Below, one piece after another: positions 39,338 to 62,462 of a stretch of 64,000 nt of DNA. The position numbers were made by a program, and so were the translations under genes. The stretch lies in assembly GCA_905221605.1 (NCBI GenBank), contig CAJNDS010002823.1, forward strand, positions 653,001-717,000, given 5' to 3'. Position 1 is the first letter of the stretch. Each line of letters opens with the position of its first letter. This DNA comes from Symbiodinium natans. Its lineage: Eukaryota > Sar > Dinophyceae > Suessiales > Symbiodiniaceae. Under the pieces are notes generated by a model that was given only the letters and a program-made list of their open reading frames with translations, did no database searches and had not been told where the DNA came from.

Positions 39338-40400
39338 AAGGAGCTCTTCAATTCCCTTCCTTATCTCCTATGCTCTTTATCTTATTCATTGCAACAGGAG
39401 AAGACAGGAAAAGGGCCTCCATTCCCCTGTTGTTCTTATTTCTTTTGTTTTTGACATTTAGAGGGGAACAGGAGAAGAGAAGGGAAAGAGAAGGAGAGTG
39501 GAGAGATAAAAGGAACACAATGTTAATGGGAAGAGCCAAGAAAAGAATGGAAGAGAGATGAATAAAGGAGAGGGAGAGACAAAACAAGGCGCAAAGAAGA
39601 TGGCACTCTTCTTCATCTATCCTCTCCTCCTTATGTCTCCCTTCCCTCTTTCTTTTCGAAATAAGAAAACAAATTCAGGAAGAAATATGAAAAGGAGAAG
39701 GGTAAGGAAAAGAGCAGAAGAGACAGGCCGAAAAGAGGGTATGATGAAGTATGGCAAGGTCCACGCGCAAGGAGTCACCCTCTGCTTACCCTTCCACTGC
39801 TTTATCATACAAGTTCCTTTCTTGTGGTTTATCAGTTCAAAGGAAACAGAAGGAGAGAAGGGAAAGAGAAGTGAGAGAAGAGAGACAACAAGGAGGCCAT
39901 TTTATTTTTCTGGAAGGGTATTGAAAAGAAGAGAGACAAGAAACAAGGAGACGGGTGGCAGTCTTCTTTATCTATCATCTCTCCCTTCCTTGTCTCTCCC
40001 GTTTCCCTCTATACTTCAAAGGACAAGACTATTCTTGCTCTTCGCAGATCTCTCTCCTCTTCAGGAAGCCCCCTCGCCCGTATTTTGCTTGCTTTCTGAA
40101 ACGACAAGGAAAACAACACATTGAAAGAGAGGAAAGGGAATGAAACAATAGGCAGTGGAGCTCTTCAGTGTCTTTCCCTATCTCTTTTCTTCTTTTTCTT
40201 CTTCATTCAAAAAGGAAAAGAAGCTTCCTTTTGTGTTTTTTTGAGATTTAAAGGAGAACAAGAGAAGGAAGGGAGAGAGAAAGGAGAGAGGAGAGATCAA
40301 AAGGAATGCAATTTTAAGGGGAAGAGCAATGAAAAGAATGGAAGAGAAATGAAGACAGGAGAGGGAGGTGCAAAATCAGTGCAAACATCACCATGCCTAA
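39338..40400. repeat. Purine/pyrimidine-rich dispersed repeat, long copy
   Basis: Alternating purine-rich blocks (GGGGAACAGGAGAAGAGAAG) and pyrimidine-rich blocks (CTTCTTTATCTATCCTCTC). It contains internal partial repeats near 39830, 40140 and 40255. A second copy at 50631-51050 matches its segments 39411-39640 and 39960-40140 with an internal deletion, and a fragment occurs near 55195-55245. The 188-residue open frame at 39558-40124 is very likely non-coding composition. Class unknown. Confidence 0.7.
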
Positions 40401-47141: not shown

Positions 47142-50100
47142 CTAAAGCACTGTTTCAGAGGCCGCGAGCCTCCTCCTCAGGGCGGCCCTGGCTCGGTGGG
47201 AGCGTGCAGCCACGCACAATTCCTGCATCAAAAGGGAATGCAGTGGGCCGGGCTCCTCCCCGGCACGAGCCGCAACAGCACGCGCCACGTGCTTTATGAT
47301 GACTGCAGCACCCACATCCCAAGTACCCGTCGCCTCTGCCACCATTGGGACGAAGGCGACGCCTTGGGACTTACAGGCCTGCGCAGTCTGCTTATAGGCC
47401 TCCTTATCCCGGGCATACGCAGCTGCAGCAGCGCCACCCTGTTGGCCTGCCAAGGCCAGGGTCTCCTGCCGCTGAGGTGCCGTGATGGCAAAGTCAAGTG
47501 CGGTAGGAGACCCGGACAAAGCGGGCACGTAGATATCGGCCGGCCGCCGAGCGGCAGAACTGGCGTCGTCTGGGGACTGGGGCAAAAGCAGGCCAGGACG
47601 TTCCTTCTCAGGATGGAAGCCTGCCCGGTGCAGCCAAGCAAACAGTACATCCCGCACTGCATTATGGCGAAGGGTGCGCTCTCCCCCGGCGACACAGGTG
47701 GCGGCATGATGATTGTAACGGTCCAACACCCCGTCACACAGCGGGCACCAGAGGTCATCAGCCGCATCAGGAACCCCCAACCGGGACCGCAACTCCGCGG
47801 AGAAGACAGCCGGTTCCATCCGAGTACGCCCAGAAGGGATGGCCGCGAGGAAGGCCCGGGCGCCAAGGCCAGCCTCAGAGCGGAGCACCGCACGTTCCAC
47901 AAGGCTAGCCTTTGCCAGGTGTGCTTGCCAATCGGCGCGGTCAAGTCGCTCCGACAGGTCGCGCTGCCTGGCAGCCAGAGCCGCATCCAGGGACATCTGG
48001 GCATCGGCAGGGAGGTTATTACAAAGTGCCCGAAGAGCACCCGCCACAGCAGGCGAAGCTTGAACACGTGGACCAGAGAAGGTGTGGTCGATGTCGGCAC
48101 AGGCAGCCATGCTGGCTCCTAAGGATGCCAGATAGGCCGCTGGCGCGTGGGCAAGGCAAGAGCGAAGTCCCAATCCAGCTTGGGCGACACCCCGTGAAGC
48201 CTGCCGCCACTGGTCATCAGTCAGGTGGATGCCGGTAAGGTCGCCGAAGCAGCGTTGCACCAGACCGTCGAAGGTGGCGAGGGCATCGGCTTGCGCTTCG
48301 GGGGGGTTGCAACGCATGCTGTGGACCATACGCGAGAACCCCGCACAAGCTCGCAAGAGACGGAGGCCCACTTGTGGGTCCTCCAGTTCAGCAACCGCTT
48401 CCAGCAACTCGCCGGCCTTGGCCACCCGCGCAGAAGTGTGCTGGCAGATGTAAGACTCGTCGCCGATGGCTGCACCCAAGAACTCAAAGTTGTTTGTCAG
48501 AACACGGCTGCTTCCGTCTGCGCGACGCAGCAGGGCAGCAGGAAAGTGCGGCTGAAGGAGCTGCGCATTGGTGGCGCCAAACACCACCAGCTCGCACTTG
48601 CCGAGGTTAAGTTCGAGGCCGATGTCTGCAGCTCGCCGTTGGGCGAGCTGGAGCGCAGTGCCCAAGGCAGGAATGTCACCAGCGAGCACGCCATCATCAA
48701 GGAAGTGCACTGCGAGGTCCAGAGCGCCACCGCGCAACTCAGACGCCAGTGGTTGCAAGGCAAGAGAGAACAACAAGGGGCCCAGGGGATCCCCCTGTTG
48801 CACTCCAGCCGACGACTCCAGACTACGGTCGCCGAACTGAAGACGACTGGGTTGGCGGTAGCACCACGTAGCCCAACGAGCCAGGGATGGAAAGTGGGCG
48901 GCAGCCTGTCGCAAAACCTCCTCTCTGCTCACGCAGTTAAAAGCGTTTCGCAGATCAAGCTTCAGGATGGCCTTCTGGGACGAGCCCGCATGTCTGTCAC
49001 TCCAGGCTCGCACGGCGTGCACAGCCTTTTCCGCCCCACCCTTTACAGACACACCGACCTGCGCAGGCCAAAAGAATTCCCGGGCCTCGTCCTTCACAGT
49101 GATCATCAAACACTTCCCTGTAAGTCGGCGAAGTAGTTCTCCCACAGCTATGGGCCTGACCCCACCGGCAGGCTTAGGCAAGGCCACGAGGCTAGCGCCC
49201 GCAAGCACCGGTGCAACCTCAGCAGGCGCACGGCCCTGAGCGAGGAGGTCCACAACAGCGGATAGCTGAGCCAGAAAGTTGTCAGTGCTTCCAGCACAGC
49301 AGGCATCGCGCAGATGTTGCACACGGAGGCCGCTCGGGCCGGGGGCGGTCTCGGCCGGGAAAGCCCGCAAGCACCGCGCCACAAGCTCCGGAGCCATACT
49401 AGGCGGCAGCGGCAGGTCAGCGATGGCCGGCGCTGCAGGCAAGGGCCGGTGTGGGTGAAGAGCAGCAAGGGCCCTAGCAGTGTCCTCGTTCTGAGGGCAG
49501 AGACCTTTGGACAAGAGAGCGGCACAAGCCTTCCGGTCAAAGCCCTCGCGCCCCCAACTGGTAGCGATGTCCCTGCGTTCCTCGGGCGTCAGCGGCCCAG
49601 TGCGCGCAGCCCGGCGGCAAGGACGGGCCTCCCAGAGTGACAGGCGCTCCCCCTCCTGCCACCGCTGCAGCCTGTCCAAAGTGAAGGCGGCGGCAGCCTT
49701 GCGGTGCCTTCGGCCCCCCCGCCCAGGTGCACAAAGCACGCACTGCGGTAACATCAAAAGCTCCAGCCAGGACTCCAGGTTATTGTGATGCCCCACAGCG
49801 GCTAAAGCTCGTGTAAGCACCTGGTTCCACGCATGCCTCGCAGCAACCGGCACATGCCGCAGAGTACTGGTGCGGGCAGCCTGGATGGCCTCGAAAGATG
49901 GTAATGGCAAACCATCCACCTCCATCGGGGCGGCCTCCACAGCAGCCGCCCTGGCTTCAGGCCTGCAGGTTGGGTGGACACCGACTGGGCACCGCATTCG
50001 CCTGCGCGCCTGCATCCAGCCAACAGGCACATCCCCCTCCAGAGTGCCAGCCAGGTGGGCATCAATATGGGCCCGCATGCAGGTGTCATTAGCCCAACCA

Positions 50101-50615
50101 CGGGCGCGAGCGGGATCCGAGCAACGACAAGCAGGGACAGGACAGTACACGCGCCCCCTCCGTGCAGCAACATCCACACCAACCCCTGCAGCTCGTGGAG
50201 GCGGTGATCTTTCACGAGGTGGGCGTTCACCCCCGACTGGCGTGCCTGGCTCAGGTCCGGGAAGGCTCGCTTCTCCCACGCGCTGCCCTCGCAAAGGCCG
50301 CCCGGACCAGGAAAATAGCCGTGGCTGGCGTCGCCAGTTAGCCCGCTGTCGCTCATAGAGCCGCCCATGTCCACGGCGCCATCTGATGTTCGTCTCTGCA
50401 CCCCGCAGGCCCATTAGAGGATCCCACAATGGTGGGGGCAGTTGGGCATCACTCCACCCTGCATTGAGAAGTCGAGTCAAGCAGCGGCGATCCCGCCTAC
50501 CCAAACTGTCCGGGACGAACCCTGCGGTTGTAGAGAGAGGCACCTCCCATGTTGGCCATGCGGCCTCGCCAAGCCACCAGAGTCCCCATAACAGCCGTCC
50601 GGGCGAGGGGGCCAT
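47142..50615 (-). CDS. R2-like non-LTR retrotransposon ORF: zinc finger, reverse transcriptase, restriction-like endonuclease
   Basis: An intact 1157-codon frame from a true ATG (50613-50615). An N-terminal C2H2-like finger is at residues 158-187 (C-x4-C ... H-x3-H). The RT domain at about 420-720 has: TAPGPSGLRVQHLRDA; LPKPAGGVRPIAVGELLRRL; LKLDLRNAFN (catalytic Asp554); QQGDPLGPLLF; FLDD (Asp640, Asp641); LNLGKCELVVFG; FEFLG. The C-terminal knuckle C957-x2-C960 ... H969/H970 ... C974 is followed by RRPADIYVP and ALDFAIT (Asp1027, Asp1041), the arrangement of the restriction-like endonuclease of R2/NeSL-type elements. There is no APE endonuclease or separate gag. Such proteins nick DNA and prime reverse transcription at the nick in the nucleus. 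With all catalytic residues and no internal stop, the element may be recent or active. The ATG lies about 16 bp from the flanking repeat, so the 5' UTR is very short or the element is 5'-truncated. Confidence 0.9.
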   Translation of the reverse strand: MAPSPGRLLWGLWWLGEAAWPTWEVPLSTTAGFVPDSLGRRDRRCLTRLLNAGWSDAQLPPPLWDPLMGLRGAETNIRWRRGHGRLYERQRANWRRQPRLFSWSGRPLRGQRVGEASLPGPEPGTPVGGERPPRERSPPPRAAGVGVDVAARRGRVYCPVPACRCSDPARARGWANDTCMRAHIDAHLAGTLEGDVPVGWMQARRRMRCPVGVHPTCRPEARAAAVEAAPMEVDGLPLPSFEAIQAARTSTLRHVPVAARHAWNQVLTRALAAVGHHNNLESWLELLMLPQCVLCAPGRGGRRHRKAAAAFTLDRLQRWQEGERLSLWEARPCRRAARTGPLTPEERRDIATSWGREGFDRKACAALLSKGLCPQNEDTARALAALHPHRPLPAAPAIADLPLPPSMAPELVARCLRAFPAETAPGPSGLRVQHLRDACCAGSTDNFLAQLSAVVDLLAQGRAPAEVAPVLAGASLVALPKPAGGVRPIAVGELLRRLTGKCLMITVKDEAREFFWPAQVGVSVKGGAEKAVHAVRAWSDRHAGSSQKAILKLDLRNAFNCVSREEVLRQAAAHFPSLARWATWCYRQPSRLQFGDRSLESSAGVQQGDPLGPLLFSLALQPLASELRGGALDLAVHFLDDGVLAGDIPALGTALQLAQRRAADIGLELNLGKCELVVFGATNAQLLQPHFPAALLRRADGSSRVLTNNFEFLGAAIGDESYICQHTSARVAKAGELLEAVAELEDPQVGLRLLRACAGFSRMVHSMRCNPPEAQADALATFDGLVQRCFGDLTGIHLTDDQWRQASRGVAQAGLGLRSCLAHAPAAYLASLGASMAACADIDHTFSGPRVQASPAVAGALRALCNNLPADAQMSLDAALAARQRDLSERLDRADWQAHLAKASLVERAVLRSEAGLGARAFLAAIPSGRTRMEPAVFSAELRSRLGVPDAADDLWCPLCDGVLDRYNHHAATCVAGGERTLRHNAVRDVLFAWLHRAGFHPEKERPGLLLPQSPDDASSAARRPADIYVPALSGSPTALDFAITAPQRQETLALAGQQGGAAAAAYARDKEAYKQTAQACKSQGVAFVPMVAEATGTWDVGAAVIIKHVARAVAARAGEEPGPLHSLLMQELCVAARSHRARAALRRRLAASETVL

Positions 50616-50630
50616 GGCACAGGCCCTATG

Positions 50631-51050
50631 GGGCCTCCATTCCCCTCTTGTTCTTCCTTTCTTGCGTTTTTGTCATTTAAAGGGGAACAGGAGAAGAGAA
50701 GGGAAAGAGAAGGAGAGAGGAGAGATAAAAGGAACACAGTTTTAATGGGAAGAGCCAAGAAAAGAATAGAAGAGAGATGAATAAAGGAGAGGGAGAGACA
50801 AACCAAGGCGCAAAGAAGATGGCACTCTTCTTTATCTATCCTCTCTCCCTTATCTCTGCAAGGAATAGAACAAACAGGAAGCAAGGAGACGGAGTGACAA
50901 AACTTGTCGCAAAGCTTTATATATCTCCCTTGTCTCTCCCTAATTAGGCGCCCTTCCTCCTCTTCAGGAAATCGCCTTTCCCGTATTTTGCTTTTCGAAG
51001 CAACGCAAAAAAACAACAGATAAGAAGAGAGGACAGGGAATGACTACGGC
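50631..51050. repeat. Purine/pyrimidine-rich dispersed repeat, second copy
   Basis: Begins GGGCCTCCATTCCCCT and follows the copy at 39411 onward closely for about 230 bp, then skips to sequence resembling 39960-40140 (TCTCCTCTTCAGG, CGTATTTTGC). It directly abuts the 5' end of the retrotransposon ORF. Confidence 0.75.
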
Positions 51051-51240
51051 CCAGGAGTGTGTTAAGAAATTTTATTAATTAAGAAATCTGGACCTGGACC
51101 GGCCACACATTTTAAAATCCAGGGCCTCGCGGGCTCGCCCAAAAAAATTCCGCCGAGGAAGTATTAAGTAACGTTCTCTGTCATATTTACCAAGAACCCA
51201 AGAAACTGCAAGCCTCAAACCCTCTAATCCCAGGGCTCAG
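51051..51240. other. Unique linker before the hairpin/tRNA satellite
   Basis: About 190 bp of unique AT/GC-mixed sequence between the purine-rich repeat and the first (GGGCTCA)n tract. No gene seen. Confidence 0.4.
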
Positions 51241-51294
51241 GGCTCAGGGCTCAGGGCTCAGGGGCTTAGGGCTTAGGGCTTAGGGCGGAAGAGG

Positions 51295-51369
51295 CCCGGC
51301 ACAAAAAGTCACCTTTTTTGAGGTGTTTCAGGCCGGAAAGACCCAAATAAGGTGACTTTTTGTGCCGGG
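51295..51369. repeat. Hairpin core unit (type copy)
   Basis: 5' arm 51295-51313, 3' arm 51351-51369, perfectly complementary over 19 bp; the loop begins TTTTTTGAGGTGTTTCAGG. The loop contains GGCCGGAAAG and in other copies GGCC ... GGCC, a small nested stem. Confidence 0.93.
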
Positions 51370-51544
51370 CTCTGCCGGGCTCTTGCGGGGAAGCCTTTAA
51401 GGGCTCAGGGCTCAGGGCTCAGGGCTCAAGGCTCAGGGCTCAGGGCTCAGGGCTCAGCGCTCAGGGCTCAGGGCTCAGGGCTCAGGGCTCAAAAAGAGCT
51501 TTTTTCTTTGGCCAATGTTGGTTGAAATGTTTCATGTATTCAAG

Positions 51545-51616
51545 GGCCACATGGTGTAGTGGTATCACATGCGCTTCGCACGCGGAAGGCCCTGGGTTCA
51601 ATCCCCAGTGTGTCCA
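51545..51616 (+). tRNA. tRNA-Ala(CGC)-like gene, copy 1
   Basis: 72 nt including an encoded A73. Acceptor GGCCACA pairs with TGTGTCC except C3/T70; D arm GTG/CAC with AGTGGTA loop; anticodon arm TGCGC-TTCGCAC-GCGGA with a G28/G42 mismatch, anticodon CGC; T arm CTGGG-TTCAATC-CCCAG. Internal Pol III boxes: A TGGTGTAGTGG, B GGTTCAATCC. The usual alanine G3:U70 pair is absent in this register, and a G precedes position 1. Position 38 is C here but T in the other three copies. Either a functional variant tRNA or a tRNA-derived repeat; no T4+ terminator follows closely. Confidence 0.7.
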
Positions 51617-52075
51617 TTTCTCAGACAGACAAAAGTTTAGGGCGGAAGGCATAAAAAGTCACCTTGTTTGAGGTGTTTCAGGCCGGAAAGGCCCAAATAA
51701 GGTGACTTTTTGTGCCGGGCTCTGCCGGGCTCTTGCGGGGAAGCCTTGAAGGGCTCAGGGCTCAGGGCTCAGGGCTCAAGGCTCAGGGCTGAGGGCTTCG
51801 GGCTTAGGGCTTAGGGCGGAAGAGGCCCGGCACAAAAAGTCACCTTTTTTGAGGTGTTTCAGGCCGGAAAGACCCAAATAAGGTGACTTTTTGTGCCGGG
51901 CTCTGCCGGGCTCTTGCGGGGAAGCCTTTAAGGGCTCAGGGCTCAGGGCTCAGGGCTCAAGGCTCAGGGCTCAGGGCTCAGGGCTCAGCGCTCAGGGCTC
52001 AGGGCTCAGGGCTCAGGGCTCAAAAAGAGCTTTTTTCTTTGGCCAATGTTGGTTGAAATGTTTCATGTATTCAAG

Positions 52076-52147
52076 GGCCACATGGTGTAGTGGTATCACA
52101 TGCGCTTCGCATGCGGAAGGCCCTGGGTTCAATCCCCAGTGTGTCCA
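52076..52147 (+). tRNA. tRNA-Ala(CGC)-like gene, copy 2
   Basis: Same as copy 1 except TTCGCAT in the anticodon loop. Its surroundings are copied with it: (GGGCTCA)n upstream, altered hairpin downstream. Confidence 0.7.
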
Positions 52148-53304
52148 TTTCTCAGACAGACAAAAGTTTAGGGCGGAAGGCATAAAAAGTCACCTTGTTT
52201 GAGGTGTTTCAGGCCGGAAAGGCCCAAAAAAGGTGTGACTTTTTGTGCCGGGCCCTGCCGGGCTCTTGCGGGGAAGCCTTGAAGGGCTCAGGGCTCAGGG
52301 GGCTCAGGGCTTAGGGCTCAGGGCTTAGGGCTTAGGGCGGCAGAGGCCCGGCACAAAAAGTCACCTTTTTTGAGGTGTTTCAGGCCGGAAAGGCCCAAAT
52401 AAGGTGACTTTTTGTGCCGGGCCTCTTCCCCGCGTTAAGGGTTTCGGGTTTAGGGTTTAGGGTTTAGGGTTTAGGGCTTAGAGCTTAGAGCACCTCTTCG
52501 CGTGCCGGCACGGCGGGCGGAAGAGGCCCGGCACAAAAAGTCACCTTTTTTGAGGTGTTTCAGGCCGGAAAGGCCCAAATAAGGTGACTTTTTGTGCCGG
52601 GCTCTGCCGGGCTCTTGCGGGGAAGCCTTTAAGGGCTCAGGGCTCAGGGCTCAAGGCTCAGGGCTGAGGGCTTCGGGCTTAGGGCTTAGGGCGGCAGAGG
52701 CCCGGCACAAAAAGTCACCTTTTTTGAGGTGTTTCAGGCCGGAAAGGCCCAAATAAGGTGACTTTTTGTGCCGGGCCTCTTCCCCGCGTTAAGGGTTTCG
52801 GGTTTAGGGTTTAGGGTTTAGGGCTTAGAGCTTAGAGCGCCTCTTCGCGTGCCGGCACGGCGGGCGGAAGAGGCCCGGCACAAAAAGTCACCTTTTTTGA
52901 GGTGTTTCAGGCCGGAAAGGCCCAAATAAGGTGACTTTTTGTGCCGGGCTCTGCCGGGCTCTTGCGGGGAAGCCTTGAAGGGCTCAGGGCTCAGGGCTCA
53001 GGGCTCAAGGCTCAGGGCTGAGGGCTTCGGGCTTAGGGCTTAGGGCGGAAGAGGCCCGGCACAAAAAGTCACCTTTTTTGAGGTGTTTCAGGCCGGAAAG
53101 ACCCAAATAAGGTGACTTTTTGTGCCGGGCTCTGCCGGGCTCTTGCGGGGAAGCCTTTAAGGGCTCAGGGCTCAGGGCTCAGGGCTCAAGGCTCAGGGCT
53201 CAGGGCTCAGGGCTCAGCGCTCAGGGCTCAGGGCTCAGGGCTCAGGGCTCAAAAAGAGCTTTTTTCTTTGGCCAATGTTGGTTGAAATGTTTCATGTATT
53301 CAAG

Positions 53305-53376
53305 GGCCACATGGTGTAGTGGTATCACATGCGCTTCGCATGCGGAAGGCCCTGGGTTCAATCCCCAGTGTGTCCA
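53305..53376 (+). tRNA. tRNA-Ala(CGC)-like gene, copy 3
   Basis: Identical to copy 2, with the same flanks. It retains the acceptor C3/T70 and anticodon-stem G28/G42 mismatches. Confidence 0.7.
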
Positions 53377-54012
53377 TTTCTCAGACAGACAAAAGTTTAG
53401 GGCGGAAGGCATAAAAAGTCACCTTGTTTGAGGTGTTTCAGGCCGGAAAGGCCCAAAAAAGGTGTGACTTTTTGTGCCGGGCCCTGCCGGGCTCTTGCGG
53501 GGAAGCCTTGAAGGGCTCGGGGCTCAGGGGGCTCAGGGCTTAGGGCTCAGGGCTTAGGGCTTAGGGCTTAGGGCGGCAGAGGCCCGGCACAAAAAGTCAC
53601 CTTTTTTGAGGTGTTTCAGGCCGGAAAGGCCCAAATAAGGTGACTTTTTGTGCCGGGCCTCTTCCCCGCGTTAAGGGTTTCGGGTTTAGGGTTTAGGGTT
53701 TAGGGTTTAGGGCTTAGAGCTTAGAGCACCTCTTCGCGTGCCGGCACGGCGGGCGGAAGAGGCCCGGCACAAAAAGTCACCTTTTTTGAGGTGTTTCAGG
53801 CCGGAAAGACCCAAATAAGGTGACTTTTTGTGCCGGGCTCTGCCGGGCTCTTGCGGGGAAGCCTTTAAGGGCTCAGGGCTCAGGGCTCAGGGCTCAAGGC
53901 TCAGGGCTCAGGGCTCAGGGCTCAGCGCTCAGGGCTCAGGGCTCAGGGCTCAGGGCTCAAAAAGAGCTTTTTTCTTTGGCCAATGTTGGTTGAAATGTTT
54001 CATGTATTCAAG

Positions 54013-54084
54013 GGCCACATGGTGTAGTGGTATCACATGCGCTTCGCATGCGGAAGGCCCTGGGTTCAATCCCCAGTGTGTCCA
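54013..54084 (+). tRNA. tRNA-Ala(CGC)-like gene, copy 4
   Basis: Identical to copy 2, with the same flanks; 708 bp from copy 3. Confidence 0.7.
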
Positions 54085-54960
54085 TTTCTCAGACAGACAA
54101 AAGTTTAGGGCGGAAGGCATAAAAAGTCACCTTGTTTGAGGTGTTTCAGGCCGGAAAGGCCCAAAAAAGGTGTGACTTTTTGTGCCGGGCCCTGCCGGGC
54201 TCTTGCGGGGAAGCCTTGAAGGGCTCGGGGCTCAGGGGGCTCAGGGCTTAGGGCTCAGGGCTTAGGGCTTAGGGCTTAGGGCGGCAGAGGCCCGGCACAA
54301 AAAGTCACCTTTTTTGAGGTGTTTCAGGCCGGAAAGGCCCAAATAAGGTGACTTTTTGTGCCGGGCCTCTTCCCCGCGTTAAGGGTTTCGGGTTTAGGGT
54401 TTAGGGTTTAGGGTTTAGGGCTTAGAGCTTAGAGCACCTCTTCGCGTGCCGGCACGGCGGGCGGAAGAGGCCCGGCACAAAAAGTCACCTTTTTTGAGGT
54501 GTTTCAGGCCGGAAAGACCCAAATAAGGTGACTTTTTGTGCCGGGCTCTGCCGGGCTCTTGCGGGGAAGCCTTTAAGGGCTCAGGGCTCAGGGCTCAGGG
54601 CTCAAGGCTCAGGGCTGAGGGCTTCGGGCTTAGGGCTTAGGGCGGAAGAGGCCCGGCACAAAAAGTCACCTTTTTTGAGGTGTTTCAGGCCGGAAAGGCC
54701 CAAATAAGGTGACTTTTTGTGCCGGGCCTCTTCCCCGCGTTTAGGGTTTCGGGTTTAGGGTTTAGGGTTTAGGGTTTAGGGTTTAGGGCTTAGAGCTTAG
54801 AGCACCTCTTCGCGTGCCGGCACGGCGGGCGGAAGAGGCCCGGCACAAAAAGTCACCTTTTTTGAGGTGTTTCAGGCCGGAAAGGCCCAAATAAGGTGAC
54901 TTTTTGTGCCGGGCCTCTTCCCCGCGATTAGGGTTTAGGGTTTAGGGTGTAGGGTTTAGG

Positions 54961-55540
54961 GTTTAGGGTTGAGGGTTTAGAGCTTAGAGCACACCGAAAA
55001 GCTCTACACTGGTGAGTTACATGTTCCCCAACTCTGTCCCTATACTCACCTCTAATCAACCCTCGAATAAGAAATATATTTCAGGGTCTGGTTCAAACCT
55101 AACTTTCTTATTTCCATTTGGGGTTTTAAGAAATTTCGAAACCCTGGCTGAAAAAGGCAGATTTCTTATTAGAAGCCTCAGCCGTAAGTAAAGAGAGGAG
55201 CTCTTCAATGTCCCTCCCTATCTCTTATGTTCCTTTTCCTTCTTGGGGGGGGGTCCTTTTTTCTCCCTTGAAGATGCAGAAACCGATCAAAAAGGACACC
55301 CGTTCCATCGCCCATATATAGGGAGAGAGAAATCATGAGCATCAGCTGGGTTTGCTGCACCACTCGAAACTTCTCAAGTGACCTAGGCACACTCTGGGCC
55401 TATCAGAGTACAGTACAAGTACAAGCTTTCGTTTTTGAGGTAGAGGGCACGCAAGGTGGAGGAGGGCTGGGGGGGTGGGGTAAAAGAATTGTATAAAACT
55501 ACTCATATAAAGTTTATAAAGTTTATGAATCGGGCTCTTT
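54961..55540. other. Unique linker and purine-rich repeat fragment
   Basis: Follows the satellite after a (TTTAGGG)n tail (54926-54972). A fragment at about 55190-55245 (GGAGCTCTTCAATGTCCCTC) matches the start of the purine-rich repeat family. No gene recognised; the minus-strand frame from 55342 runs into the palindromic repeats. Confidence 0.45.
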
Positions 55541-55554
55541 CTTCCTTTTTGGCA

Positions 55555-55930
55555 AATTTGTCTGCAAGCAAAATTTGGACAAATCGGGCTGCTCGTCGTA
55601 CGCGATGATCGATTTGGCCAAATTTTGCCGGGCAGCCTCCGGGCAAAATTTGGCCAAATCGGGCTGCTCTTCGTAGGCGATGAGAAAGGCGCGGCTCGAT
55701 TTGGCCAAAATTTGCCGGGCAACTTTCGGGCAAAATTTGGCCAAATCAGGCTGCTCTTCGTACACGATGAGAAAGGTGCGGCTCGATTTGGCCAAATTTT
55801 GCCGGGCAGCTTTTGGGGCAAAATTTGGCCAAATCGAGCCGCGTTTTTCTCATCGCCTACGAAAAGCAGCCCGATTTGGCCAAATTTTGCCCGAAAGCTG
55901 CCCGGCAAAATTTGGCCAAATCGCGCCTTT
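55555..55930. repeat. TTTGGCCAAA palindromic tandem repeat, first block
   Basis: About four units of roughly 87-90 bp built from the inverted pair GATTTGGCCAAATTTTGCC / GGCAAAATTTGGCCAAATC, each centred on the palindrome TTTGGCCAAA, joined by CTGCTCTTCGTAGGCGATGA. Because the unit length is near a multiple of three, frames stay open on both strands; these are not genes. Confidence 0.9.
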
Positions 55931-56600
55931 CTGGAGGCCCGAAATTGTTTAAATTATTTGTTTTTTTCCTTCCCCTCCCCCCCCAAGAAGCCCATACAGG
56001 GTCCATTCGGAACCTGGCTCTCTTTTTTTAAAAATAGGTAGCCAAAAACCCCAGCCCCAGCTTCCAAATAAACCCTATTTCAGCCGCATCGCTCCGGGAA
56101 GAGTGATGAAATTATTTAAATTCCACCCGAGTTTTAAAAAATTAAGTAATTTAAATATTGGTAATTTAACTAAGTTAAATAATTTAAATAATCTAAATAA
56201 TTGTAATAATTGAAATAATTTAATTCATGGGGAGGTTGTGGGGGAGGTCCGGAATTTAACAATTTAGAGAATTTCTGGCATCCAAGATTTAAATTATTTA
56301 AATTATTTAAATTCCGGACCTCCCCCAGAGGCATCCCCAGGATGTAAATTATTTAAATTATTTAAACTATTTAAATTGTTTAAATTATTTAAATTGTTTA
56401 AATTATTTGAATTATGTAAATTACCCCTTTCCCAGAGGGATGCGGCTGAAATAGGGTTTGTTTGGAAGCTGGGGCTGGGGTTTTTGGCTACCTAATTTAA
56501 AAACAGAGAGCCAGGTTCCCAATGGACCCTGTATGGGCTTTTGGGGGGGGGGAGGGGAAGGAAAAAACAAATAATTTAAATAATTTCGGGCCTCGAATAT
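55931..56600. repeat. Foldback element with ~170-bp arms and AT-rich centre
   Basis: The left arm, about 55931-56100 (GAGGCCCGAAATTGTTTAAA, then GTAGCCAAAAACCCCAGCCC and GGGTCCATTCGGAACC), reappears inverted at 56425-56600. The centre is AT-rich with AATTTAAAT palindromes and GC-rich GGGGGAGGTCCGGAATTT blocks in both orientations. A third arm copy is at 57541-57710. Confidence 0.85.
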
Positions 56601-56613
56601 TTGAATTATTCAA

Positions 56614-56625
56614 ATTATTTAATCG
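56614..56625 (+). repeat. Left target-site duplication, ATTATTTAATCG
   Basis: 12 bp, identical to 56936-56947, directly left of the 310-bp insertion. Confidence 0.85.
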
Positions 56626-56935
56626 ACACCTAGCTAGGTCCAAGATCTGTTGGACGAACTAGTGTCAGTTTTGTGCAGGCGAGGGTATCTTGTGCAGTGT
56701 ATGTAGCTAGAGCCGTTGCAAGCCAGGGCACCATGCCCTGGTACTGGGTTAGCCACCTTGGCTCTGTGCCGTGTGCTAGCTATCCGTACCGATGGGCCTG
56801 CGCCTCTGTCTCTTGGGAGGCCCGTAAGTGGCTTACTGAGGTTTTGGTTGAGCGCAGGTCCCTTCGGAGTCCACTGATGCGACTCCTTTTGTTCACGACC
56901 GTCATGACGCATCCGAGTGGTTGTCAGTCAGTCAG
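56626..56935 (+). mobile_element. 310-bp SINE-like insertion with 12-bp target-site duplication
   Basis: A unique 310-bp segment starting ACACCTAGCTAGG and ending in the tetranucleotide repeat TTGTCAGTCAGTCAG, flanked by ATTATTTAATCG on both sides. The same repeat complex at 46455-46510 (minus sense) runs from GGGCCTC through TTTAATCGGGCC without the insertion, giving a related empty site. Lack of terminal inverted repeats, a long duplication and a simple-sequence 3' tail fit target-primed retroposition. No clear tRNA-type box A/B pair seen and no ORF. Identity unknown. Confidence 0.78.
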
Positions 56936-56947
56936 ATTATTTAATCG
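56936..56947 (+). repeat. Right target-site duplication, ATTATTTAATCG
   Basis: Second copy of the 12-bp duplication flanking the 310-bp insertion. Confidence 0.85.
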
Positions 56948-56954
56948 GGCCTCC

Positions 56955-57540
56955 GGAAAGGCGCGGCTCGATTTGGCCAAAATTTTGCCGGGCAGCTTTC
57001 GGGCAAAACTTGGCCAAATCGGGCTGCTCTTCGTAGGCGATGAGAAAAGCGCGGCTCGATTTGGCGCCGGGCAGTCTGCGGGCAAAATTTGGCCGGGCTG
57101 CTCGTCGTACGCGATAAGAAATGCGCGGCTCGATTTGGCCAAATTTTCCTGGGCAGCCTCCGGGCAAAATGTGGCCAAATCGGGCTGCTCTTCGCAGGCG
57201 ACGAGAAAGGTGCGGCTCGATTTGGCCAAATTTTTCCAGGCAACTTTCGGGCAATATTTGGCCAAATCGGTCTGCTCTTCGTACGCGATGAGAAAGGTGC
57301 GGCTCGATTTGGCCAAATTTTGCCGGGCAGCCTCCGGGCAAAATTTGGCCAAATCGGGCTGCTCTTCGTAGGCGATGAGAAGTGCGCGGCTCGATTTGGC
57401 CAAATTTTGCCGGGCAGCTTTCGGGCAAAATTTGGCCAAATCGAGCCGCGCTTTTCTCATCGCCTACGAAGAGCAGCCCGATTTGGCCAAATTTTGCCCG
57501 AAAGCTGCCCGGCAAAATTTGGCCAAATCGCGCCTTTCTG
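56955..57540. repeat. TTTGGCCAAA palindromic tandem repeat, second block
   Basis: CGGCTCGATTTGG recurs at about 56964, 57052, 57126, 57213, 57300 and 57387, i.e. mostly 87-88-bp spacing. At about 57455 the array turns back on itself: the last unit is followed by its inverted copy. Open frames on both strands (29-residue period) are repeat artefacts. Confidence 0.9.
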
Positions 57541-58756
57541 GAGGCCCGAAATTGTTTAAATTATTTGTTTTTTTCCTTCCCCTCCCCCCCCAAGAAGCCC
57601 ATACAGGGTCCATTCGGAACTTGGCACTCTTTCTTTAAAAGTAGGTAGCCAAAAACCCCAGCCCCAGCTTCCAAATAAACACTATTTCAGCCGCATCCCT
57701 CTGGGAAAGGGGTAATTTACATAATTTAAATAATTTAAATAGTTTAAATAATTTTGCTAGTTTAAATAATTTAAATAATCTAAATCCTGGGGAGGCCTCT
57801 GGGGAAGGTCCGGAATTTAAGTAATTTAAATACTTTAAATATTGGAGGCCGGAAATTATTTAAATTATTTAAATTCGGACCTCCCCCAGAGGCCTCTCTA
57901 GTATTTAAATGATTTAAATTATTTAAATCGTGTAAAATTAACTTATTTAAATTATTTAAACTACTTACATTATTTAAATTATTTATTTTTTTGAAATTAT
58001 TTAAATTTTTTAAAAAATGTAAATTCCAGCCGATTTTAAATAATTTAAATAATTTCGAGCCTCCAATATTTAAATTATTTAAATTCCACCCTGATTTGGA
58101 TAATTTAAATAATTTAAATAATTGAAATAATTTAAATAATTTTAAAAAATTAGACAATTTCAATAATTTAAATAATTTAAATCCTGGGGAGGCCTCTGGG
58201 GGAGGTCCGGAATTTAATAATTTAGATAATTTCCGGCCTCCAATATTTAAATTATTTAAATTTTTACATTCAGGACCTCCCCCAGAGACCTCCCCAGGAT
58301 TTAAATTATTTAAATTATTTAAACTATTTAAATTATTCAAATTCCACCCGAATTTAGACAATTTAAATAAAATATTGGAGGCCCAAAATTATTGAAATTA
58401 TTTAAATCCGGGTGGAATTTAAATAATTTAAATAGTTTAAACAATTTAAATAATTTAGACAATTTAAATGATTTAAATACTTTACCTTTTTTTAAATCCT
58501 GGGGAGGCCTCTGGGGGAGGTCCGGAATTTAAACAATTTAAATAATTAAATAATTTGAATATTGGAGGCCCGAAATTATTTAAAATTTTTAAATTCCAGA
58601 CCTCGCTAGAGGACTTCTGGAGGCCCGAAATTATTTAAGTTATTTAAGTTATTTAAATTATGTAAATTATTTAAATTCCACCCGAATTTAAATAATTTTA
58701 AATAATTTTAAAATTGGAGGCCCGAAATTATTTAGATTATATAAATTCCTGGCCTT
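57541..58756. repeat. Foldback arm copy and AT-rich palindromic repeats
   Basis: The arm at 57541-57710 repeats 55931-56100. Then about 1 kb of TTTAAATAATTTAAAT palindromic sequence is punctuated by TGGGGAGGCCTCTGGGGGAG blocks (about 57785, 58183, 58498) and their inverse CTCCCCCAGAGGCCTC (about 57883, 58273). GGAGGCCCGAAATTATTTAA recurs several times. Confidence 0.88.
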
Positions 58757-58915: not shown

Positions 58916-59480
58916 GAACCCGAACCCGCCTCCCTTAACAACCCTGTGGGTGTAGGGTTGAGGGTTGAGGGTTTAGGGTTTAGGGTTTAGGGTTTAGGCT
59001 TGAGGGTTTAGGGTAATGACGGCAGGATGCTTGTTTCATTTAGGGCGGCTACTAAAGTTTTATCGGGGGTGAACTTCATACGTCAACGCTGCTTCTCAAG
59101 ATTATAAGGAAGTCCAAGCCCTTAGATAAGTTCAACAACTCTTCTAGGTGAAGCAGCAATGTCAATTAATGCCTACACTGTGTCACTCAACCCCAGCTGA
59201 AACAACCAGGCCCGCTCCCAAAAGAATATAACAAGGGACTTTGGGATACTAGCAGTCCTTCATAGGGTTTAGGGTTTAGGGTTTAGGGTTTAGGGTTTAG
59301 GGTTTATAATTTAGGGTTTAGGGTTTAGGGATTACAGTACCCCCACTATATTCCCTATTCAAGGCTGTGTGAAAGCCCCAAAGTCTGTTGAAAACTCGAA
59401 GCAGAATGGCCAGGTCCCTCCAGTAACCTAGGATTCCAAGGGAAGCCTCAACCCTCTCTTACTATGTATATTTAAACCCT
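58916..59480. other. Telomere-like arrays and unique sequence
   Basis: TTTAGGG-type arrays at about 58950-59013 and 59256-59330 with unique sequence between. No gene recognised. Confidence 0.5.
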
Positions 59481-59481
59481 A

Positions 59482-59740
59482 ATGACCTTCGTCGGCAAAT
59501 GGTTTTTTTCCACCCGGGGGGGGGCCCTAACCCTGACCCCCTTCGTCGGCAAATGGTTTTTTTCCACCCGGGGGGGGCCCTAAACCCTGACCCCCTTCGT
59601 CGGCAAATGGTTTTTTTCCACCCGGGGGGGCCCCTAAACCCTGACCCCCTTCGTCGGCAAATGGTTTTTTTCCACCGGGGGGGGGCCTAAACCCTGACCC
59701 CCTTCGTCGGCAAATGGTTTTTTTCCACCCGGGGGCCCCC
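59482..59740 (+). repeat. 54-bp tandem repeat, first block (5 units)
   Basis: Unit CTTCGTCGGCAAATGG, T7, CCACCCGGGGGGG, CCCTAAACCCTGACCCC, repeated with 53-54-bp spacing (CGTCGGC at about 59490, 59544, 59598, 59652, 59705). Each unit includes a CCCTAAA heptamer. The length is a multiple of three, so an 18-residue repeat stays open; probably not coding. Confidence 0.93.
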
Positions 59741-59869
59741 CCAAAACACCCCAAATGAGGGGGACCCCAGGATCGGCCCCGGCCCCAGTTCAAAATGCGA
59801 TTTTTTAGTATTGAAATCGACGGTTCTGGGTGGCCTCCTGTTTTCTGGATTTTTGACCAAAATCGGGGG
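59741..59869 (+). repeat. Dispersed ~130-bp repeat, copy 1
   Basis: Starts CCAAAACACCCCAAATGAGG; contains GCGATTTTTTAGTA, AATCGACGGTTCTGGGTGG and CTGGATTTTTGACCAAAA. It interrupts the 54-bp array. Copies 2 and 3: 60383-60519 and 60775-60917. Confidence 0.88.
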
Positions 59870-59898
59870 GGGGGGGGGGCCTAAACCCTAAACCCCCG

Positions 59899-60317
59899 GC
59901 CCTAAACCCTGACCCCCTTCGTCGGCAAATGGTTTTTTTCCACCCGGGGGGGGCCCTAAACCCTGACCCCCTTCGTCGGCAAATGGTTTTTTTCCACCCG
60001 GGGGGGGCCCTAAACCCTGACCCCCTTCGTCGGCAAATGGTTTTTTTCCACCCGGGGGGGGCCCTAAACCCTGACCCCCTTCGTCGGCAAATGGTTTTTT
60101 TCCACCCGGGGGGGGCCCTAAACCCTGACCCCCTTCGTCGGCAAATGGTTTTTTTCCACCCGGGGGGGGCCCTAAACCCTGACCCCCTTCGTCGGCAAAT
60201 GGTTTTTTTCCACCCGGGGGGGTCCTAAACCCTGACCCCCTTCGTCGGCAAATGGTTTTTTTCCACCCGGGGGGGGGCCCTAAACCCTGACCCCCTTCGT
60301 CGGCAAATGGTTTTTTC
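59899..60317 (+). repeat. 54-bp tandem repeat, second block (8 units)
   Basis: CGTCGGC recurs every 54 bp from about 59920 to 60298, almost identical between units, including the variable G-run. Same unit as 59482-59740. Confidence 0.93.
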
Positions 60318-60382
60318 TATTTGGGGCATAGGGTTTAGGGCTCGTAGGGTTTGGGGCATAGGGTTTAGGGCTAAATTTTGCT

Positions 60383-60917
60383 CCCAAAACACCCCAAATG
60401 AGGGCGACCCCAGGATCGGCAAGGGTCCCAGTTAAAAATGCGATTTTTTAGTACTGAATTCGACGGTTCTGGGTGGCTTCTCGTTTTCTGGATTTTTGAC
60501 CAAAACCGAGCTTCACCGGCAGGATTTCAAGTTTTTTCACGTTCTGTCAAGGTTTTTCAAAGTTTTTCAGTTTTTTTTTAAGGTTTTCAAATGTTTTTCA
60601 GGGTATTTCAGGGTTTTTAAACCCTCAATTCTGATGACGGGCCACCCCGGCGACCTTTTCACAGCCTAGTTTTGGTCAAGGGGGGGTCGTATTTCCCAGT
60701 TTTAAAAGCAAAATAGTCTTCGGAGACCCCCCCTTGCCTCAAACTCCGACCCCCCTTGAGAGGGAAAGTTTGCCTCCCAAAACACCCCAAATGAGGGGGA
60801 CCCCAGGATCGGCAAGGGTCCCAACTAAAAAGGCGATTTTTTAGTACTGAAATCGACGGTTCTGGGTGGGCTCTCGTTTTCTGGATTTTTGACCAAAACC
60901 GAGCCTTCACCGATCGG
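60383..60917 (+). repeat. Dispersed ~130-bp repeat, copies 2 and 3
   Basis: Copies at 60383-60519 and 60775-60917, same orientation as copy 1 and each continuing to CCGAGC(C)TTCACCG. The 250 bp between them is T-rich (TTTTTCA-type) unique sequence. No ORF. Confidence 0.85.
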
Positions 60918-61172
60918 GGCTTCTAAACCGTAGGGTTTAGGGCCCTAAGAGCATAAAGGGCTTATTGCGGGCCTTAGATTAAATTTCGGGTTTTGGGTCC
61001 GTTAAAAACTAAAATATTTTTGGACCAATTGGACTTTAAGCTTTAAGCCTACCGGGAAAGTATTGAGTGGACTTTATATTTTCTCAATGTTATGGGTTTC
61101 TTGGGTGGGTGGGATTTTTTTCCAACGCTTGACAAGCTGCTTGACTAGTGAATGCTCGAACTTGAGATGCTG
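60918..61172. other. Unique AT-moderate sequence
   Basis: No gene or repeat recognised apart from a single TTTAGGG-like heptamer. Confidence 0.4.
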
Positions 61173-61415
61173 AACCCTAAACCCTAAACCCTAAACCCTA
61201 AACCCTAAACCCTAAACCCTAAACCTTAAACCCAAAACCTTACACCTTGAACCCCACATTTCTTAAGAGAGCCGAAGCCCCGACCTAAAAGGCAACAAGG
61301 CGTGCAGTGAATTCCACGGAGCTCAGATAAACCCCGGGTTTAGGGTTTAGGGTTTAGGGTTTAGGGTTTAGGGTTTAGGGTTTAGGGTTTAGGGTTTAGG
61401 GTTTAGGGTTTAGGG
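61173..61415. repeat. Opposed telomere-like arrays
   Basis: (CCCTAAA)8 at 61173-61231 and (TTTAGGG)11 at 61337-61415 facing each other across about 105 bp. Confidence 0.94.
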
Positions 61416-62462
61416 CGTCTAAACCCGAGAGGCCTAACTCCCTGAACTCCTCGGAGGATGCCTCAAGTAACCCTACAAGCCTAAGCCCTAAACCACTGAA
61501 CGCTCAACTCTGAAACCACAATCGAAATACCCAAACACTCTCAACCAGAAAGACCTACACCCCAAAACCCTACAAAACCTTACAATCCCGATCCCGAAAC
61601 CGCTACAAAACCGAAAATGCCCCCCTACTGCCCTTGATGACAGGAGTCCCTTATCCGAAACTGCAATTTGCTTAAACACCCACCAAGAAATCAAACCTAT
61701 TCTTCCTCATATGGGCAATCTGGAGACTATTACCTCTTTCTTTTGTGGGGGGTTCTTAAGCCCCTAAACCCTAAACCCTAAACCCTAAACCCTGAACCCT
61801 AAACCCTAAACCCTAAACCCTAAAGGGGCCGGCATGTGGGCCTGGAGCAGCGAAGCTTTGTCGCCGCGGTGAAGCCTGACAAAAGGTGAATTAGGGTTTA
61901 GGGTTTTGGGTTTAGGGAGTTTCGGGTTTAGGCCAAGAATGTAGGGCGTGAAGGGTTTTAGGGTTGAGGGTTTAGGCCTACCATTCAGGGGGCGGGGGTA
62001 GGGCTTTTGAGTTTGAACTCAAAACTTTTCAGGTGCCTCAGGGTTTGAGAGTCAGGGTTTTTAGGGTGTCAGGGTAATATGGGTTGAGGGTTTACAGGTG
62101 ATTTAGGGTTGTAAGGCTGCCAGGATTATAGCGCTTAGGGTTCTTTCGGGTTTGGGACGAAGGCTTTATAGAGTTTGCATGGGGCGAAGGGTTCAAGCTT
62201 TCGCTTTGTACAGGTACAGGCTTGGTTTAGGGCTCAAGGCTTCAAACGCCTTGACCGTAGCCCCCACAGCCCCTAAAAACCCTCACCCTAAACTCCCAAA
62301 CCCTAGGCCCTAAAGCCCTGTTCAAAGCCAGGATTCGGGTGCAGGGCGAGTTTCGGGAACGAAATTAGGGGTTGCGGCCCTTACCAACCCCCACCCCACC
62401 CCAAAAAAGGTCCCCATGGCTGCCGTGTGACTATTGTGGACTCCCTCTTTTCGGTGGACCCT
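61416..62462. other. Patchwork: M4 element, array and decayed telomere-like sequence
   Basis: M4-type inverted-repeat element at 61663-61760, its right end directly joined to a (CCCTAAA)n array at 61762-61824. Decayed TTTAGGG-like sequence at 61890-62160. No supported gene. Confidence 0.5.

Follow-up and report, generated by a model that had tools for sequence, protein, structure and literature searches.

Satellites borne by miniature inverted-repeat transposable elements (MITEs) are documented, one example being miDNA4 of Xenopus tropicalis (PMC9659126), and transposons with terminal inverted repeats (TIRs) that capture and spread host chromosomal DNA are known from plants as Pack-TYPE elements (PMC8903248). 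Here, we describe an array of 17 long hairpins and four transfer RNA (tRNA)-Ala-like genes in a 64,000-nucleotide stretch of the genome of Symbiodinium natans (contig CAJNDS010002823.1, positions 653,001 to 717,000; hereafter, the window). Very probably, the array makes up the inner part of a DNA transposon, non-autonomous and of the cut-and-paste type, in a Symbiodinium-like dinoflagellate, and the hairpin and a captured tRNA have been multiplied within that element. The host, a dinoflagellate alga, has relatives among the symbionts of corals. Satellites carried by transposons and Pack-TYPE elements that capture genes are known already; new is the union of a hairpin satellite with a tRNA gene taken from the host in a single TIR element. 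No description of a tRNA gene captured in such an element, nor of this transposon family in dinoflagellates, was found in the full-text literature, which leaves most subscription journals uncovered.

The element shares individual traits with several known systems. Like the MITE-borne satellites, it is non-autonomous and has a tandem array born inside it, but its monomer is a long palindrome, its host is a dinoflagellate, and its amplified unit includes a tRNA gene (PMC9659126). Tetris, a non-autonomous foldback DNA transposon of Drosophila virilis, likewise has internal repeats that expand to satellite-like arrays; those repeats lie inside long TIRs, whereas the element in the window has TIRs of 24 bp and central hairpins (PMC4079207). 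With its unique ends of ~185–195 bp and its hairpins in the middle, it does not have the build of a foldback element. Pack-TYPE elements resemble it in being TIR elements that capture and spread host DNA, yet they are described by captured coding DNA, whereas the host DNA between the TIRs is here a tRNA gene and not of coding-gene origin; the word tRNA does not occur in the main text of that account (PMC8903248). The coral CMITEs also possess a conserved, unusual interior able to form tandem arrays; they are described as tandem MITE arrays related to the piggyBac machinery, and the abstract mentions neither an internal hairpin array nor a tRNA (PMC2872659). In Entamoeba, tRNA genes are interleaved with tandem repeats, as in the window, but almost all of the host tRNA genes are organized in such arrays, whereas the mobile element described here holds a single type, mostly decayed (PMC2652664).

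The limits of the element are given in Table 1. In the genome scanned (759 Mb in 2543 contigs, including the window's own), 17 elements were read, namely 16 of 43 end pairs and one further copy (L075), and the copies end at identical bases, CGGCCC and CAGCCG. A script check of the 16, two of which are split by nested insertions and were examined as two halves, found a matching dinucleotide outside both ends in every case; this is TA, the duplication to be expected of the Tc1/mariner superfamily, in 15 and TC in one, and the 17th element is flanked by a TA duplication too. When the flanks of the window copy were joined across a single TA, the resulting sequence was found uninterrupted elsewhere (best match, 94% over 160/160 bases; 40 scored of 1303 candidates), and the three such places that were aligned each show an unbroken site with one TA. 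The empty site of the window copy is clean and lies within an abundant repeat. Fixed-length duplications and empty sites are properties of class II elements, as are TIRs, which here measure 24 bp and are imperfect, with 17 of 24 positions identical. The absence of coding capacity, another such property, was confirmed for the window copy, where no stop-to-stop frame of at least 150 aa overlaps 51047–55184.

Dozens of near-identical copies are dispersed through the genome. The 24-bp TIR pattern, with three mismatches at most allowed, occurs in 68 + 70 = 138 places, as against 1 + 3 = 4 for the control pattern, which corresponds to about 70 elements. End pairs were typed from 100 listed of the 138 matches, all of them one of the two known end forms or a 1-mismatch variant, and 43 pairs were obtained, two of which are split by large nested insertions. 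Among these listed matches, the 41 uninterrupted pairs span 452–4138 bp, and the window copy is the longest; their median of 2007 bp departs from the ~400 bp given for MITEs, and only the smallest copies are miniature (PMC9659126). A search with the hairpin placed the array-bearing assembly on the window's own contig and on nine others. Pairwise differences amount to 27/8325 at the left ends of ten array-bearing copies and 24/7020 at the right ends of nine, or ~0.3% for both ends together, indicating that the family is young. As for the two split copies, L032/L033 (C446:1496–1515 kb) is interrupted by ~17.6 kb with the ends CCAGGGCGGGC...GCCCGCCCTGG, a candidate large transposon, and L038/L039 (C2007:172–183 kb) by ~10 kb carrying at both of its ends the same direct repeat, in which 220 bases or more are identical; the latter insertion is therefore probably a retroelement of the long terminal repeat type.

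The preliminary description of the array, made from the sequence alone, was accurate in counting 17 hairpins (51294–54921), four tRNA-Ala-like genes and two spacer classes, which are composed of GGGCTCA-type and GGGTTTA-type heptamers. It had given the arms as 19 bp, extending to 28 bp; perfect arms of 22–29 bp are indeed found in 13 of the 17 hairpins, but the four hairpins directly 3' of the tRNAs have perfect arms of only 10–13 bp. Its boundaries, 51241..54960, fell short of the true unit, which covers 51047–55184. Rfam microRNA models matched the hairpins under their gathering cut-offs, and these matches were set aside as ones that any long hairpin would give. Telomere-like CCCTAAA/TTTAGGG tracts of at least three units number 55 in the window, five of them inside the element, compared with none in 20 simulated sequences; with 55 in one window, the telomere-like spacers are no evidence of a telomere. 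The 50 tracts outside the element lie at 1559–36908 and 58972–61824 of the window, and six of them form inverted pairs (C...G) 115–150 bp apart.

The hairpin was present in each of the 17 elements that were read. The number of arms is one in L072, two in L075 and L080, three in L074, L041 and the split C2007 copy, five in L076, six in L073, eight to ten in eight others and 17 in the window. The simplest copies, L072, L074, L075 and L080, have one to three hairpins and are free of tRNA; L072 (572 bp) has a single palindrome, the perfect arms of which measure 34 bp, next to a single tract of the TTTAGGG type, and neither a second hairpin nor a tRNA. Since the hairpin is found in every element read, including those devoid of a tRNA, it belongs to the transposon. 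Genome-wide, the exact 22-nt arm occurs in 316 + 293 = 609 places and the reversed control in none, and 100 of the 100 listed arm matches (of the 609 counted) fall inside element spans. The arm occurs 0 times in viral contigs and 0 times in prokaryote genomes, neither of which is a collection expected to hold dinoflagellates.

The tRNA predictions, based on ARAGORN and the Rfam tRNA model (cut-off, 29 bits), identify the four genes in the window as tRNA-Ala(CGC) with scores of 52.7–53.2 bits. Fourteen copies are distributed over ten elements: four in the window, two in C2364 and one in each of eight others, a count that leaves out seven further matches (C1800, C728, C479, C1826, C458, C1731 and C247). 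A host tRNA-Ala(CGC) gene at C1538:3534–3605 is 96% identical to the window form, and ~50 bp upstream and ~25 bp downstream of it are common to the element copies; the host DNA taken up in this one lineage extends over ~145 bp and comprises the gene with both flanks. The inclusion of upstream host DNA points to capture as DNA. The surroundings of the host gene on C1538 (L042, L043, L045, L051–L054 and L066) are a dense cluster of host tRNA genes, ~14 kb in extent.

The G3:U70 pair is the alanine identity pair of tRNA. Base 3 is G in three of the 14 copies and C in the other 11, in which G3:U70 is lost; these typically score 52.7 bits, with one window copy at 53.2. The two copies of C2364 score best (64.9 bits) and have G at base 3 and C at base 28, like the host gene. 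In the L036 copy, the 28–42 pair of the anticodon stem is lost (56 bits; stem positions assigned by eye); the 11 copies with C at base 3 add the change of G3 to this loss, and an additional T-stem change reduces the L032 copy to 45.6 bits. Together, the stem-pair losses and the changed G3 show that the tRNA module decays while the element spreads. Insertion with a 2-bp duplication, dispersal, differences in array length, captured host DNA and tRNA decay are all shown by comparison of the copies.

A scheme that joins these observations can be proposed. A transposase supplied in trans would act on the TAAGAAAT motifs that are repeated near the ends as well as on the TIRs of 24 bp. As the series of copies suggests, the ancestral element would have contained one long, near-perfect palindrome beside a telomere-type heptamer tract, and slippage or unequal exchange would have multiplied the palindrome unit up to the 17 hairpins of the window copy. 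A host tRNA-Ala segment may have been taken in once, during break repair within the array, after which the unit "hairpin, tRNA, hairpin" would have reached four copies in the window element, with the tRNA losing its alanine-identity pair. The arms would have stayed complementary because the copies are young and not through selected pairing. In a single genome, where 1, 2, 3 ... 17 units stand between nearly identical ends, one sees what seems to be the birth of a satellite in the interior of a DNA transposon, and also a tRNA gene that was captured as DNA and has since been decaying, its parent gene being recognizable to this day. A route from a single palindrome to a satellite, and one by which tRNA pseudogenes may multiply in dinoflagellates, thereby become testable by comparison of copies and species.

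tRNA-derived short interspersed nuclear elements (SINEs) are dispersed elements that hold tRNA-related sequence with RNA polymerase III (Pol III) boxes, and the array might be ascribed, although this is very unlikely, to a Pol III-dependent element of that kind, in which a transcript from the tRNA promoter enters a hairpin that serves as a 3' processing or termination signal. Motifs resembling the A and B boxes are intact in 13 of the 14 tRNA copies, the exception being L032, and in C2364 the first run of four T residues past the tRNA copy is reached 54 nt downstream of it, within a hairpin. However, hairpins are also present where there is no tRNA at all, and the element has TIRs and a 2-bp duplication in place of a 5' end at a transcript start and a long, variable duplication; no A-rich tail was seen, and captured upstream host DNA is unexpected for a retroposed transcript. 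Moreover, only 21 of 54 tRNA predictions in the genome (one of the 54 being an element copy) have a run of four T residues within 30 nt; such a run is commonly lacking nearby, and no special terminator is therefore needed. A processing or termination signal had been among the initial proposals for the array; the tRNA-free copies L072, L074, L075 and L080 argue against it, and neither Pol III termination nor tRNA processing was accepted as the primary role of the hairpin. The companion proposal of a non-autonomous element exploiting Pol III holds in its first half, given the TIRs and the TA duplication, whereas nothing shows exploitation of Pol III.

It is very unlikely that the hairpins constitute a structural RNA or DNA satellite maintained by selection for arm pairing, for instance as a host replication, recombination or processing signal. 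One 91-nt hairpin is indeed very stable when folded as DNA (−43.9 kcal/mol versus a shuffle mean of −12.5, standard deviation 2.4, z = −12.9; equalled by 0 of 200 shuffles), and exact arm matches are as numerous as reported above, but the 100 listed of these all belong to one transposon family, and the element ends, which differ by 0.3% pairwise, are of the same youth as the arms; this explains the identity of the arms, which in young copies needs no selection on pairing. The arm changes point the same way: they were followed at 34 pairs in 86 hairpins (one partial hairpin in L036 was excluded) and tallied by copy, so that changes shared through descent are counted repeatedly, and they are nearly all one-sided, with many breaking the pairing. 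Only one cell, at the outermost position, is changed on both sides yet paired. One-sided breaks number 50, of which 37 concern three outer pairs in 12–13 related copies, largely of the post-tRNA variant; both-sided breaks number 10 and gaps six, and a further 49 one-sided changes still pair, 28 of them by conversion of G-C to G-U at the outermost pair. The check for compensatory changes that the preliminary description had proposed, a weak test among close relatives, therefore lends no support to selection on pairing, as changes are almost never compensated. Of the alternatives it had offered, selected structure or recent amplification, the second is favoured by ends ~0.3% apart and by the uncompensated arm changes. 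It is extremely improbable that the array arose without any transposition, through simple tandem amplification at a single locus or through segmental duplications of one array. The window, with 17 arms and four tRNAs compared with 1–10 arms and 0–2 tRNAs in the other 16 elements read, is what such amplification would give; however, the copies on other contigs stop at common ends flanked by a dinucleotide in duplicate, and an empty site is present in the genome. As an explanation of the dispersal it is refuted, while local expansion within the element is part of the best explanation. An arm pair confined to this locus, in identical copies and with no RNA, had been named as the mark of a simple amplification without function; the first two of these signs are absent, as the assembly occupies ten contigs and the 86 hairpins have 28 distinct forms.

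Several points nonetheless weigh against the array as the interior of a transposon with the history proposed above. The TIRs are imperfect, and one copy has a TC duplication, which would be unusual if the target were strictly TA. The capture step, the passage from few to many hairpins and the precedence of the C2364 type are inferred from the copies of today, and the few-hairpin copies could be contractions. Comparison of close relatives also gives the compensation test little power either way. Finally, no autonomous partner was found among the 17 elements read or by a search for the Tc1/mariner-type DDE_3 domain, the only transposase domain searched for: DDE_3 (PF13358) has 19 matches in the genome (24/24 candidates scored), located on C1056, C1535, C2105, C2205, C1990, C2167 and C2384, and none of these contigs carries a listed end. 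One of the other 27 of the 43 pairs could still hold a transposase gene, as 1–4 kb is enough for a small one. On C1056, C1535, C2105 and C2205, the DDE_3 transposase-like frames reach up to 627 aa and recur approximately every 3.6 kb in a tandem-like manner.

Table 1. Features of the element in the window (positions are those of the 64,000-nucleotide stretch)
Feature	Position	Strand	Basis or remark
Complete non-autonomous DNA transposon (very probable), CGGCCC...CAGCCG	51047..55184	+	4138 bp; limits from 17 elements and empty site
Target-site duplication TA, left copy	51045..51046	.	single TA in empty sites
Target-site duplication TA, right copy	55185..55186	.	single TA in empty sites
Left TIR, 24 bp	51047..51070	+	17/24 match the right one; genome-wide pattern
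Right TIR, 24 bp	55161..55184	-	genome-wide pattern
Left unique end, TAAGAAAT motifs at 51063 and 51080	51047..51231	+	40 scored of 59 candidates, 98-100%
Right unique end, TAAGAAAT/ATTTCTTA motifs at 55068, 55127 and 55161	54990..55184	+	40 scored of 61 candidates, 98-100%
Captured host tRNA-Ala segment, first copy (5' flank, gene, 3' flank)	51495..51636	+	aligned to C1538:3534-3605; limits by eye
tRNA-Ala(CGC)-like copy 1	51545..51616	+	ARAGORN, Rfam
tRNA-Ala(CGC)-like copy 2	52076..52147	+	ARAGORN, Rfam
tRNA-Ala(CGC)-like copy 3	53305..53376	+	ARAGORN, Rfam
tRNA-Ala(CGC)-like copy 4	54013..54084	+	ARAGORN, Rfam
Hairpin 1, perfect arms 22 bp	51294..51370	.	
Hairpin 2 (post-tRNA variant), perfect arms 13 bp	51653..51711	.	
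Hairpin 3, perfect arms 22 bp	51825..51901	.	
Hairpin 4 (post-tRNA variant), perfect arms 10 bp	52184..52244	.	
Hairpin 5, perfect arms 26 bp	52342..52426	.	
Hairpin 6, perfect arms 22 bp	52526..52602	.	
Hairpin 7, perfect arms 26 bp	52696..52780	.	
Hairpin 8, perfect arms 22 bp	52873..52949	.	
Hairpin 9, perfect arms 22 bp	53054..53130	.	
Hairpin 10 (post-tRNA variant), perfect arms 10 bp	53413..53473	.	
Hairpin 11, perfect arms 26 bp	53578..53662	.	
Hairpin 12, perfect arms 22 bp	53762..53838	.	
Hairpin 13 (post-tRNA variant), perfect arms 10 bp	54121..54181	.	
Hairpin 14, perfect arms 26 bp	54286..54370	.	
Hairpin 15, perfect arms 22 bp	54470..54546	.	
Hairpin 16, perfect arms 29 bp	54644..54734	.	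folding energy also computed
Hairpin 17, perfect arms 29 bp	54831..54921	.	

Further rearrangements were observed in other copies. The array of C2364 is inverted relative to the element ends, and L036 contains a truncated-hairpin junction, both of which fit inversion at the hairpin arms. L073 and L076 carry a different segment, 244 bp in length, inside a hairpin loop and without a target duplication; its 18 copies are spread over 11 contigs, every one with element ends, and seven of these contigs hold two copies. A similar multiplication, of another inserted piece, has thus taken place in a second lineage. Another segment, with tRNA-like box motifs and Arg-like by eye, is found at ~680–780 in L062, where it is flanked by a 21-bp direct repeat of which L072 has the empty form, and at ~3915–3990 in L036. 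Both kinds of segment were considered as tRNA genes on the strength of A- and B-box-like motifs seen by eye and were rejected as such: cmscan gave no tRNA match up to E = 10 for the 244-bp segment and the Arg-like segment of L062, and ARAGORN predicted none. It is possible, if somewhat doubtful, that the palindrome array acts as an engine of capture and rearrangement, the arms of which break and recombine so that foreign segments are repeatedly taken in, inverted and multiplied along with the hairpins; the tRNA-Ala capture, the 244-bp segment, the inversion in C2364 and the junction in L036 are all consistent with this. The recombination hotspot suggested at the outset thus finds partial support, from arm counts of 1–17 and from the inverted array.

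Elsewhere in the window, an open reading frame of ~1175 aa with an RVT_1 reverse transcriptase domain lies to the left of the array (47142–50672, minus strand) and is 91% identical to a Symbiodinium natans protein over the 501 residues searched; part of its 5' side recurs at 39413–39638. On the other side of the element, at 55342–57560 and 57780–58388, are repeats that can be read as FGQILPGSFRAK-type and LNNLN-type frames, the FGQILPGSFRAK-type frames being readable on both strands.

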